Assembly (NCBI RefSeq): GCF_028640845.1
Contig: NC_080539.1
Coordinates: forward strand, 304,206,016-304,270,015
Length of the DNA stretch: 64,000 bases
Reading direction: 5' to 3'
Source of the DNA: Ahaetulla prasina
Lineage: Eukaryota; Chordata; Lepidosauria; Squamata; Colubridae
Part shown: positions 10,458-61,732 of the stretch, piece by piece
How positions within the stretch are numbered: the first letter of the stretch is position 1
How the letters are laid out: each line of letters opens with the position of its first letter
Notes under the pieces: model-generated
Told to the model about the DNA's origin: nothing
Databases searched by the model: none
The model's input: the letters and a program-made list of their open reading frames with translations, nothing else
Position numbers and translations under genes: made by a program

Positions 10458-13400
10458 AAATGATTGGCTATTGCTAGAACCTTTTCCATCATCATCATCA
10501 TCTCCAGTCTTATATGCATACATGTATACTTTTGTTAATTAATACAGTGCAATAAAATTGTATACATGCACACATTTTTTAATTTATTTTAAATCTTAAC
10601 TCAAGAAATTCTGAAAGATTTCTTGTAAGGAGAAGGTTGATAGATTTATAGTATGACACCAGTGTGTATTTTTTAACTGCCGTTCCAGAAAAACACCATC
10701 AGAAAAATGGCATAGCTGATTGATAGGTAGCTCATCACTGACTGACACATTCTTTCATGACTGTCCACTTCTGACTTGCTTCTGGATACTGCTTCATACC
10801 TCTGACTTTTTTCCCACTTTAGCAACAACTGGCAGGAGTTGCTGGAGATGACAAACTACAAAGGCAAACAGTTGGAAGATGCTAAAGCAATTTACAAGTG
10901 CCTGCAGGACTTAATGGAAGCTCTCAGCCACATTGAGGTGAAATTTGTGTCAGAAAGCAAATGTGTCTTTCTAAGGCTCAGATTAGATGTGAAACAACAA
11001 CCATTCGTTTCTATTGTTTGCCTAGCCTTTCCACACTAAGTAATCTTGATAGCTAACAATAAATGTAAAATTATAGTATTGTGAAAGTTTACATTTGCCC
11101 ATAACATTTTTAAATCAGGAAAATATAGAAAGGGAAATAAAAACAATTGTCCAATGTTTTATTCCCATATTTCTTTCATATATACATATAGAAATTTAGA
11201 AATTTGGCTCCGATGAATAATGGGATTAAACTGTACCCCACTGCATGGCATACTTTTTTCTTCAGTCTCTTTCTTTCCAGTATCAAAGATGGGTTGTAGA
11301 GCAGGGGTCTCCAACCTTGGCAACTTTAAGACTTGTGGACTTCAACTCCCAGAGTTCCTCAGCCAGCCAAATTCAAATAGTTCGATGTCACTCCCTTTTT
11401 ACTCTTACACACCCATTATAACAATTCATATATACTTGAAGATGATATATGAAAAAAGAAGATCAGCCTTCTCCATGTAAACACCAACAAAGGAATGCCA
11501 GCATTTCTCTCTGGCTCTAGTCAGATTTGATTGAACATTTTCGTCTTTGTTTGGATCAGTAGAACTTATCCACACACCTTTCATTCAGCTGTTCTCGGCG
11601 TTGGTGTATTATTTTCATCTCTTCCTCATTCTGCCTCTTCAATCGCAGAGCGAGAGCATTGATGCCTTTGATGTGGGTATCATCCACTGTTACTCCCTAT
11701 AAGAAGAAAGTCAAAGAGAAAACAGATAGTAAAGCAAAGTCTTAATTCTCTCCTCCCTCTTCTCCTTCCTTCTAGGACAGAGGTCATCAACCTTGGCAAC
11801 TTTAAGACTTGTGGACTTCAACTCACAGAGTTCCTCAGCCAGCTTTGCTGGCTGAAGAACTCTGAGAGTTGAAGTCCACAAGTCTTAAAGTTGCCAAGGT
11901 TGGAGACCCCTGCTGTAGAGCATAGGTTTTATACAGTGGAAGGGAAGGGATTTAGATCCCTTTATGGGTATGATTCTTTTCGTTTACAAATAGACTCCCA
12001 CATATGCAAATGAAAAGAGTTTTATACACTGCCTATATTAGAACAAAATCAAACCAGAATGATTAACAGAAAACATGTTTGGTCTTTAGGACAAATTGAA
12101 GACCATCCCAGATTCCATTGCTAAAGATCTGAATGGGGTGCAGTCACAGCTACGTAAGCAAGAAACTCTTGAGCATGAATTATTTGGGAATGAGCAGCAG
12201 GTAAGATATACTGCAGTCCTAAAAAAAATGTATTAAGAAAATTTACATGGCTGCCCGACACACAGCAATTCTGGGCAGGTTACAGATATTGTCGTGTCCC
12301 ACTCCACCTCCGACGACCGGGTCTAGGAAGTCCGTATCAGGCGTGGCAACAAAGCCTCTGCAGCTTTGCCAAATTTCTCCGAGGTTTCTCAGGGCAGGCA
12401 GGAGTCCAAGCTGTGACTTCAGCAAACTAGATGAGACTTTGCTTGACTCAAGGTTGCTTGACTCAAGCAGGTCCTTTATATAGGCTGTGGGGTGTGGCTC
12501 CATGACTCAGCATTTATCCAGGCCTGCCCCTCCCTTCCTTCTGCTGGCGTCACCTTTCAGATCTCTGGAAGCAAGGATCCTCCCACTTTGAATTGTCTTC
12601 TGCTGTTTGAGAAAGGGAGGGGTCAGAAGGAGTAGGCCCGAGTAATTCCAATCCGTGGCTGACTTCCTCTGATGGCTGAGCCAAAGGAACACATGCCATA
12701 TGAGTGAGGTTTGTTTGTTCATTCCTGACATCCTGTCCGGACATGGGGCCAGGGCCGGGGGCTGGAGGCATGACAGGCCGTTCATCTTCATTATCAGACT
12801 CGGAGTCTGATAGCAGGCCCAGGAGGAGACGGGAGGGGCCCGGCTGAGGAGAGGAGGGAGGACAAGGCACAACAGATATAATGGCCTTGTTTTGAATTTG
12901 CCTGTGGTTCTTGTCTTCTAAATATGAATATGCTTTAAATGTGAATTTGAACTGAAACTAATCATCAGCAAGATGCCATCAACAAGTGGTTAATGCATAG
13001 GGCTAGGAGCAGGAGAGGCCAGGTTATAATCCACCTTCAGACATGGAAATTCATTGGGTAACACTAGGCCAGCCACCCTGCCTCAATATAAAGTGGTGTT
13101 CCAGGGAAAATTAGGGGGTGCGAGTGTTAGGTATGCCACCTTGAATTCATGAATGAAATATGACACATCTTATTCTTCTAATGATCCCATAATCCCGTGC
13201 GATGTGGAGTCTGGGCAACTGAATGGGGCTGAATGTTTACTGGCCAGATGCCCTTCCTGTCACCAATGCGGAGTTTTGTTCAGTGGATATATTCTCATTG
13301 TGCCCAGAGAGAGAAATAGCTGCCTCTACCTAGGATGGAACTCAGAACCTCTTGATTGTGAGGTGAGAATTCCACCTCAAGGCCACCGCACCACTCAAAT

Positions 13401-34400: not shown

Positions 34401-37400
34401 GAATGAAATGGAGTTATAAGACTCACACTGCCAAGATGCAAAGTTTTGTAAGCTTTGAGGATTACCTGTATTTTATATACTGAAGAAAACTTCACATTTT
34501 TGTTTCCATTTCTACCCCTTTTCACAGCAAAGAATTATTTAAAAAAATAGTGACAAGGCAGTTTAAAGTGCCAGTTATAAGGATGTTCCTTTCATCTGGC
34601 TTTCCTCTGGCTTTCAGGAAGCCAGAGAGATAGTAAATGTTGAGAAATGCAGATACTCAATAGGAACTCGCAGTTAGGTTTAACATAGTCATAGATGTAA
34701 GACTTAACCTCCTAGAATAGGGGTCTCCAACCTTGCCAACTTTAAGACTTGTGGACTTCAACTCCCAGAATTGAAGTTGAAGTCTGGGAATCTGAAGTTG
34801 AACTCTGGGAGTTGAAGTCCACAAGTCTTAAAGTTGCCAAGGTTGATGACCGCTGTCCTAGAAGGAAGGAGGAGAGGGAGGAGAGAATTAAGACTTTGCT
34901 TTACTATCTGTTTTCTCTTTGACTTTCGTCTTATAGGAGGTGACAGTGGATGATGCCCACATCAAAGGCATCAATGCTCTCGCTCTGCGATTGAAGAGGC
35001 AGAATGAGGAAGAGATGAAAATAATACACCAACGCCGAGAACAGCTGAATGAAAGGTGTGTGGATAAATTCTACTGATCCAAACAAAGAGGAAAATGTTC
35101 AATCAAATCTGACTAGAGCCAGAGAGAAACGCTGGCATTCCCTTTTTGGTGTTTACATGGAGAAGGCTGATCTTCTTTTTTCATATATCATCTTCAAATA
35201 TATATGAATTGTTATAATGGGTATGTAAGAGTAAAAAGGGAGTGACATCCAACTATTTGAATTTCATTCCCAATGCTAGTTAATAAGTTTTATTATAAAC
35301 ATCACTGAAATCTAAATTGCTAAGGCAATGGCAATCTTCTAGTTAAGAATAAATGTCAATGTAACCTCAAGCTACTCAACCCACATAAAAAATATAATGA
35401 TGAAATAAGAATGATTTCAATTAACTTGGTATCGTCTGATTAAAATCCCCCTGGTGACAGAAAACACTGGTCAGCAGAATGGAAGTCAGTACTATTGCGG
35501 GGGGGGGGGGGGGGCAGTGATTCCCTCCCCCCCAGCCCTTTTATTGCTACCCAATCAGATCCAGTCTTGTACATTAATCACTTTTGATGTCATTATGTTT
35601 GTACTTGCTTAATCACATAGATAAATAAAGTTGGGCTGGTGGGAATCATAAACCCAAATATATAATTGTTTTATTGCTCTAATCCCATATTCGAGCTATT
35701 TGATCTTCTCAAATAAAATTAAATGTTTCACTATCAGGTGGAACAGTTTCCATGGTGATCTTAAAATGTATAAGAGGAAGTTGGAAGAAGCCCTGCAGAT
35801 CCATGCCTTGATTAGAGAAATTAATGACATCACAGACAGAATTGGTGAAAAGGTGATTTATTTTATTATTTTTAAGGGCGCTTTTTTAACTTGACAAGTT
35901 CTCCAGAGCAGTGGTCACCAACTGGTGGTCCGTGGACCACAGGTGGTCCATGAGAAAATTTTTGGTTGTCTGCAGAAAATTATTTGCATTTTTTATATTG
36001 CACTAAATCCTCAAACTATGGCCCCTGGGCTGGATAAGTGCAATAAACGTTTGTATTGCTGCAGAGAGTCTCTCCTTTCGGGGTCTTTTTGTGCGGGTCG
36101 GAGGGAAGCAGAAATTCTGACTTGGGATCTGCTTCAGCCTCCTGGTGCGGGGCTTTGGGTGAAGGATGGAGGGAAGTGCCGCTGGTAGTGAAGAGCTGGA
36201 GGGCCTTGTTTCAGTGGGATTGCCTCATGGCCTGGAACTGGCTGACCATCTCAGCCTGCTGAGCCTCCAGGTGCTGGTACCTGGCCTTGCACTCCTGCAG
36301 GTCTTCCCTCTGCTTGGGAAGCCTATGCTCCTAGTCCTCAGTGAGGTGCTTCTATTGAGCCTCCTTCTTGGTCAGATCCAATTCGAACTGAGCTGTTTTG
36401 CCAACTCTTTCTCATGGTGGCTGCTTAGCTCCAACAACTGCTTCCTGTTGGGGCCCTAAGGAGCCAGGCGGGGTGGCAAGGAGTGGCTGGCAAGGGTGGT
36501 GCGAGTAGAGGCTAGCAAGGCGCCCCTCGATATGAGTGACATCAAGTTGCCCACGCCCACCCAGCCGGTCATTAAGCAGATCGTATTAGTAGTCCGTGGG
36601 ATTTAAAATTATGAATTTAGTGGTCCCTGAGGTCCAAAAGGTTGGGGACCCCTGCTCCAGAGGGGATAAAATTTCAGAAAACCAAATAGTAATAAAATAT
36701 CAAGAGGGAATTTTGACAGTCAGAGGTACAAAGAAAAGAAAGAGTCAGAAAAACTTTCCTGATTATCATACACAAACAGTACTTGCTCTATGTCTCTCCT
36801 TTATTTTAAGAGCTTTTGTGAAATATTCTGAAAATGCTAACAGAATTAGGCATATAATTTTTTTCAGATTCATAAGCTTTATTAAACTTGATAATTTTGT
36901 TATTTTTTTAATCTTGTAAAAAGAAAATTATTCAAACGGTTTTCAATATTTTACTATGGTATTAGAATACATTTTATTCAGCAGTTCCTGAATAACAAAT
37001 AAATAAAAACAAATATGCATGGAAATATTAATTTTGATAGAAAATGGATTTAGTTTGATCTAATATTTCAGATTAGAAAAATTCTAATTTTACTTAAATC
37101 AGGGGCGGATAATCCAGAGCTCTGAAAGACTAAATTATTATGATTGGTGGTACAGTAAGCCAAATGTTTAGATTAGATTTGGGATTTTTAATCATCTATC
37201 AAGTTATGTTACGTTATTTATTTATTTATTTAACTACCCAAATCTCAGTGATGCGCCAATCCATCTAGAGATATACCGTAGATATATTATGCTATATCTA
37301 GACATAATAGTATATACTGTGGATGTACTATTATATTTGATTGTGTTATTTTATTTCAAAGTGATTACTCAGTGCCTAATAATTTGTTCTATAGAAATCT

Positions 37401-61086: not shown

Positions 61087-61507
61087 GTAAGCTACTGATT
61101 AAAGAAAGCAATTAAGTTGAAATAGCAATTATAGAATGTTGTGAAGCTTCAGAGTATACACACAATATAGTTAATTTGTTTGCTTCTTGTTATTTTATAT
61201 TTCTGCATTTTCACCATTGTTGTGAGATGCCTAGGACTACAAGAGAATGTACTTTAAATGCTGTAAATGAATTGAAACAATGAATGCATTTACTGGCATT
61301 AAAGCACTTGAATGAGCGAACTGTGAACTGCCTTCTTGCAACCAAGTGTTTGCATCAATCAATAGGATAGCATAAATTATTATTACTGCATACACAGGTA
61401 CACAATGGCAGGCCTGTAGGAAAAGGAGCTAAGTCAAGAGAAGCTTGTGATCAAATGTAGGATTCTTCTTTCATCAAAACAGAAGAGTCTGCATGTTTGG
61501 TTTCTAC

Positions 61508-61732
61508 CAGAGGTGGTATTCAGCAGGTTATGACCAGTTCTGGAGAACCGGTAGAGGAAATTTTGAGTAGTTCGAAGAACCGATAAATACCACCTCTGGC
61601 TGGCCCCGCCCTATCTAGTCTCTGCCTCCCGAGTCCCAGTTGATCGGGAGGGAATGGGGATTTTGCAGTAACCTTCCTCTGCCACGCCCACCCAGCCAAG
61701 CCATGCCCACATAATTTTGAATCCCACCACTG
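61508..61732. mobile_element. hAT element B, right partner of the triplication
   Basis: Ends CAGAGGTGGTATTC / GAATCCCACCACTG, flanked by GTTTCTAC/GTTTCTGT, so it is a complete original insertion. Confidence 0.88.

Follow-up and report, generated by a model that had tools for sequence, protein, structure and literature searches.

A hAT MITE composite carrying an inverted copy of a spectrin-repeat exon in Ahaetulla prasina, probably formed in place by copying through the arm of a sister MITE

In the abortive gap repair of Ds elements, interrupted synthesis leaves foreign filler between the ends of the transposon. In animals, 370 Pack-TIRs have been reported from 100 genomes, 208 of them with hAT elements and 4 of them multicopy (Tan et al. 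2021, PMC8277862). As far as the sections of that survey cited here go, single-copy animal Pack-TIRs are mostly ascribed to gap filling, internal breaks are argued for most cases, and microhomology is given for the breakpoints of 67.6% of cases; the pipeline is described as seeking parents that have no association with a TIR TE, so that linked cases may be missed (PMC8277862). Satellites derived from MITEs have also been described, for instance Xstir in Xenopus (cited here from parts of PMC12628747 and PMC9659126).

The stretch of DNA analysed here, referred to as the window, comprises 64,000 nucleotides of Ahaetulla prasina (C1:304206016-304270015, C1 being contig NC_080539.1 of assembly GCF_028640845.1; the genome is 1.77 Gb in 745 contigs). 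It holds a gene on the + strand, presumably that for beta-V spectrin, with many spectrin-repeat-like exons, a few of which were tested against Pfam and PDB. Joined exons elsewhere in the window score up to 82.2 bits with PF00435 and their PDB matches are spectrins; the exon at 34937-35055, joined with part of the next exon, reaches E=3.1e-05 and 24.8 bits, below the cut-off of 29.9, and alone it has one match in PDB at E=6.3, which is not meaningful. A unit of ~1.03 kb was also observed three times in tandem at 58448-61698 (95.8% identical), each time with the same spectrin-repeat exon (58850-59020, 59862-60032 and 60895-61065), which may be a triplicated exon in the gene or a duplication in the assembly.

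Between two of the spectrin-repeat-like exons lies an element at 11302-11912, the parts of which are collected with those of its parental locus in Table 1. The original prediction had described it as a Pack-type hAT element with MITE TIRs and an 8-bp target duplication that carries a duplicated exon of the host gene, and this was confirmed: the TIRs are CAGGGGTCTCC (from 11302) and GGAGACCCCTG (to 11912), and the flanking 8-mers TTGTAGAG and CTGTAGAG match at 7/8 positions, the chance of a match of at least 7/8 being 0.0004. The copied exon indeed retains the neighbours of both splice sites and an open frame, and a MITE of the same family, with TCCTAGAA on both sides, indeed stands beside the parental exon, 81 bases from it. 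Since the gene extends beyond the window, the number 18 that the original prediction gave to this exon is provisional. On its right the element has a whole MITE (11778-11912) and on its left half of one (11302-11367); its outer ends together make up a single palindromic 135-bp hAT MITE, whose halves differ at 2/66 positions and, when joined, fold as one hairpin. The MITE is short, has terminal inverted repeats and has no coding capacity. A MITE nested in a MITE was ruled out, since beyond 11912 there is no partner for the inner 8-mer TTCTAGGA.

Table 1. Parts of the composite element and of its parental locus (positions in the window)
Feature	Position	Strand	Remark
Left target-site duplication TTGTAGAG	11294-11301	.	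7/8 with 11913-11920; central TA
Resident MITE left half, TIR to palindrome centre (...CAGCCAGC)	11302-11367	+	64/66 = reverse complement of right half
Single base C at join	11368	.	G at matching parental place; centre in 11778-11912 is TTT
Captured flank, inverted copy of 35264-34864	11369-11769	-	96.5% identity, without gaps
Copied spectrin-repeat exon (of 34937-35055)	11578-11696	-	AG/GT neighbours, open frame, antisense to host gene
Copied target duplication of parental MITE, TTCTAGGA = inverted TCCTAGAA	11770-11777	-	now internal to element
Inner MITE arm, parent-specific GGTCATCAACC at outer end	11778-11837	+	
Right half of resident MITE, ending GGAGACCCCTG, with its TTT centre	11838-11912	+	start of this part placed by hand
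Right target-site duplication CTGTAGAG	11913-11920	.	
Parental MITE left target duplication TCCTAGAA	34710-34717	.	
Parental-side MITE, same family, rearranged centre	34718-34855	+	
Parental MITE right target duplication TCCTAGAA	34856-34863	.	
Copied parental flank	34864-35264	+	
Parental exon, part of spectrin repeat	34937-35055	+	

The source of each part of the element can be read from the comparison with the parental locus. In blastn, 11369-11911 is aligned in inverted orientation to 35264-34719 (93.4% over 547 columns), and the captured flank itself differs from its parent by 14 substitutions in 401 columns with zero gaps. An inverted copy of about 34856-35265 had been predicted: the inversion was borne out, but the copy, instead of stopping at 34856, extends across the parental MITE's target duplication (11770-11777) and into the arm of that MITE. 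Amongst the 109 distinct TIR contexts of the fetched loci and the window (motif GGTCnnnAACCTTGG), GGTCATCAACC is found in two, the parental MITE and the copy, and because it is limited to these the copying is taken to have gone through the parental TIR. Against the parental right arm the inner arm shows 5 differences in 60 positions, and against the element's left half 4 in 66; the element's right half differs from the left arm of the parental MITE at 9/60. The centre is the ordinary TTT in 11778-11912 and is rearranged in the parental MITE, a difference that fits a template switch but also a later change in the parent. A subfamily sharing the parental centre was considered and set aside, the next best match to the whole 66-bp centre being only 83%; partial matches reach 95% over 42 bases and 100% over 30-32, and other rearranged centres occur in many members of the family. 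The simplest account of these parts is a single resident MITE that came apart at its centre and took up the filler via the arm of a sister MITE. The divergence between parent and copy (3.5%), taken with that between the MITE halves, would agree with a capture soon after insertion, the numbers being small.

The family to which these MITEs belong was characterized from 63 pairs of TIR-like ends in the fetched loci, with up to two mismatches allowed between the 8-mers of a pair and the first 8-mer scored. Position 4 of the 8-mer is T in 60/63 pairs and position 5 is A in 60/63. The 8-bp target duplication nnnTAnnn is given as a Buster-type signature in the part of PMC3517528 cited here. Judged by target duplications and TIRs, the family is accordingly a putative Buster-type member of the hAT superfamily. 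Across L040-L068 the centres of the MITEs were seen to be variously rearranged with the arms intact (for example GAATTGAAGTTGAAG), as if repeatedly broken and mended; these loci were chosen via a search with one rearranged centre, and their share of rearranged centres is thus not a rate. Two candidates for further composites were rejected: L036 consists of two neighbouring MITEs, and L046, examined by eye as a possible second capture, is a MITE interrupted by a different type of hAT-like element (L046:985-1580, TIR CAGCGGTTCTCAACC), whose ends we take to resemble those of SPIN-type elements.

The element was probably made where it now lies, by a break at the centre of the resident MITE, copying via the arm of a sister MITE into the sister's flank, and end-joining at the centre. 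The palindromic 135-bp hAT MITE first inserted into an intron of the spectrin-repeat gene, as is shown by its TIRs, its target duplication and its matching halves. Later its centre would have been broken or the MITE excised, the first damage being done either by transposase in the course of excision or by the hairpin breaking. From the right side, new synthesis may then have copied the right half and the centre of the MITE before switching by homology, within the arm, to the arm of the sister MITE, which lies in this gene 23 kb off. Copying would have proceeded outwards through the sister's TIR and its target duplication and on through 401 nt of flank that include the exon, in the order in which these parts are now found, and the new end would have been joined to the left half, halted at the palindrome centre, where the join is seen. 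The result would be a Pack-type composite formed in place, with no movement. This formation in place is argued from the order of the parts and their diagnostic bases, from the two genomic places of the insert, from the recurrence of the architecture and from the leaning of the joins towards the centre. The join itself counts against it, since at 11367-11369 there is no microhomology and one extra base is present.

The same architecture recurs elsewhere in the genome. A join pattern consisting of a TIR end, a TA-centred 8-mer, 0-60 nt and a half MITE from the centre is found at 499 places, against 0 for a backwards control; amongst the matches listed, many of the places belong to tandem arrays (C3:2.0-5.4 Mb, C1:2.1-3.4 Mb, C1:365.83 Mb and C14:3.92 Mb). 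The array unit was observed to be a half MITE from the palindrome centre, its TIR, a TA-centred 8-mer and at most ~36 bases of flank. With the rejoining point left open the pattern gives 1115 places against 0 in the control, a result that was kept out of the counts as the matches listed, which lie in C1:2.18-3.43 Mb, consist almost entirely of array units. The first fifteen loci of the listing, every one of them on C1, were retrieved for comparison; L081-L085 are the same array as L080, leaving 10 composites. Five of the 10 hold their own right flank at 15-17 of 17 bases (L072, L073, L077, L078 and L080, the last compared with the next unit of its array), two hold their own left flank inverted (L075 and L076; 17 of 17), and in the remaining three the flank is neither (L071, L074 and L079; 6-8 of 17). 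A composite's own flank can hardly have come from elsewhere, and those composites are thus concluded to have arisen after insertion, in place.

Capture from a distance is seen in two further cases. An eleventh composite, L068, contains a piece of L067 (96% over 127 bp, 18 kb away), and its order is of outer arms of GGTCCC type, an inner arm of GGCAAC type like that of L067, ACCTAGAG with a few bases of flank, and its own half from the centre. The captured flank of L079 occurs at one other genomic place, L087, 7.4 Mb off on C1, which adjoins a MITE with the 8-mers GTTTAAAC/GTCTAAAC; the left TIR of L079 has a base change in common with this donor (CACGGG), which would fit repair beginning at the TIR edge after excision in L079. 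Compared by eye, the outer 8-mers are identical in five of the 11 composites (L068, L075, L076, L077 and L079), differ by one mismatch in L073, by two in L071, L072 and L074 and by three in L078, and in L080 match its array unit; that only 5/11 are identical was counted against formation in place. At C9:4628534 and C9:4628806 a telomere-like TTAGGGTTAG stretch was observed inside the captured flank.

At the locus itself, the insert is found at two places in the genome, the parent and the copy, 23 kb apart on C1 (2/2 candidates scored), and a query with all 611 bp of the element gave the same two insert places (40 of 2974 candidates scored). With no more places than these, there is no evidence of the composite having multiplied or travelled as a whole; several copies with distinct target duplications, the mark of unit movement, were not found in the genome-wide search for the insert. 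The original prediction had the exon captured and then reinserted 23 kb away; further copies of the 611-bp element, also envisaged there, were sought genome-wide and the insert was met only at the parent and the copy. This, the own flanks held by comparable composites, and the outer halves, which resemble one another more closely than the right half resembles the parental left arm, speak against the reinsertion, and the 23-kb jump is not needed to explain the element. An unlikely variant, close to the FoSTeST model as outlined in the cited part of PMC8277862, is that assembly of the composite took place at the parental exon or close to it, with a second MITE past 35264 or by fork switching, and that hAT transposase then moved it as one TIR element to 11302. 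It would suit the two intact outer TIRs and the 7/8 target duplication, and some composites do look dispersed: the type CTCTAGACTCCCAGGAGGGAGG... was observed at distant places on C2, C6 and C7 (C2:240.28, C6:13.44 and C7:98-100.6 Mb), a distribution from which some composites may have spread. However, such a history sits poorly with an insert at two places only and with a right half that differs from the parental left arm at 9/60 positions and from its own left half at 2/66. Unit movement would moreover require a second MITE end at the far edge of the parental flank, and 35240-36300 holds no trace of a TIR, with no 19-base match at fewer than six mismatches.

Where the rejoining falls bears on formation in place through a break at the centre. 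For one and the same set of outer motifs, a spacing that permits joining at the centre (35-65 nt) occurs at 105 places, many of them array units, and a shorter one that does not (0-30 nt) at four. The 100 listed of the 105 and three rows from the four were collapsed to 29, arrays and look-alikes being reduced to one row each (C6:13.4 and C7:98-100.6 Mb into C2:240; C10:30.99 into the C3 array) and C2:268709731 and C3:172639100 being excluded as adjacent MITEs. A script placed 15 at the centre and 12 in the arm and left two without an anchor; by eye, C2:240, C9:4.6 and C14:3.92 were assigned to the centre. In all, 18/29 collapsed places rejoin within the 9 of ~36 positions at the centre (binomial P = 3e-05, which assumes even rejoining over 36 positions and is a guide only) and 11/29 rejoin in the arm, the latter being counted against the reading of a break at the centre repaired in place. 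One of the places scored as central by the script, C1:11431415, may be an adjacent deleted MITE, and C2:240 and C7:96.35, having similar captured flanks, may be one event, which would give 17/28. At several joins bases common to flank and centre were noted by eye (CCAGC in L073, AGCAAA in L078).

These arm joins speak for a plain inverted duplication or gene conversion between the two MITEs, in which a break at the palindrome centre plays no part and the edge at the MITE centre falls there by chance; this is nevertheless very improbable, in that the left half stops at the centre, where rejoining is frequent in comparable composites too. Least probable of all is mobilisation of the parental MITE along with its flank through a cryptic downstream end, for although the captured flank does adjoin a MITE, the element closes at its far side with a true and full half MITE rather than a cryptic end, and no TIR-like site is present at the far edge of the parental flank.

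The captured exon lies antisense to the host gene and would not be expected to be spliced into the normal transcript. Copy and true exon belong to one gene, the copy being 23 kb upstream, and the two make a long inverted repeat with a strong predicted duplex (-705.5 kcal/mol over 401 nt). Substitutions are about equally frequent inside the exon (4/122, this exon window extending three bases beyond the splice site) and outside it (10/279), and the open frame of the copy is therefore uninformative on its use.

The locus suggests that a transposon can copy the flank of a neighbour, an exon included, without moving, and that the donor's target duplication is then trapped as a marker of the event. 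There is about an even chance that the palindromic MITEs of this family are, more generally, standing repair traps, a break at the centre being mended by copying through any family arm and beyond it. If so, one pathway would yield captured exons, a MITE's own flank duplicated in tandem, the opposite flank copied in inverted form, and tandem arrays of half MITEs with a target duplication, and TE-linked captures may be missing from earlier Pack-TIR counts, for which parents were sought that had no TIR link. Exon capture and the birth of satellites may then share one repair outcome. The signature can be counted in genomes rich in palindromic MITEs, as a TIR end, a foreign nnnTAnnn 8-mer, flank, and half an element from its centre.

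No description of the element's particular join was found in titles and the openings of abstracts, mainly of the non-subscription literature. Gap-filled Pack-TIRs are already known as a class, and the element is a TE-linked form that the published survey pipeline leaves out. It has captured non-TE sequence between TE parts and a parental copy elsewhere, as a Pack-TIR does, and the single copy and the parent on the same chromosome (C1) that go with gap filling; the parent is, however, associated with a TIR TE, the MITE at 34718-34855 adjoining it, where the survey required a parent with no such association. As in abortive gap repair of Ds, interrupted synthesis would have left foreign filler between two transposon ends, but here the stop is at a palindrome centre and the bridge is the homology of an arm to another copy. 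With the gap-filled animal Pack-TIRs, as characterized in the cited sections of PMC8277862, it shares the hAT superfamily, TE parts on both sides, a parent on the same chromosome, a single copy, a breakpoint within the TE and no need for transposition. It is unlike the Pack-TIRs of those sections in that the parent lies beside a sister MITE, whose arm forms the bridge and whose target duplication is now inside the element. Plant Pack-MULE and Pack-TYPE elements (see PMC8903248) are likewise TIR elements with captured gene sequence, but the present element has no sign of amplification and is read as made in place. Lastly, the tandem arrays resemble the Xstir-type satellites, as these are presented in parts of PMC12628747 and PMC9659126, in having arisen from a MITE; unlike them, the unit here is a half MITE with a target-duplication-like 8-mer and flank, which has the same join as the dispersed composites.
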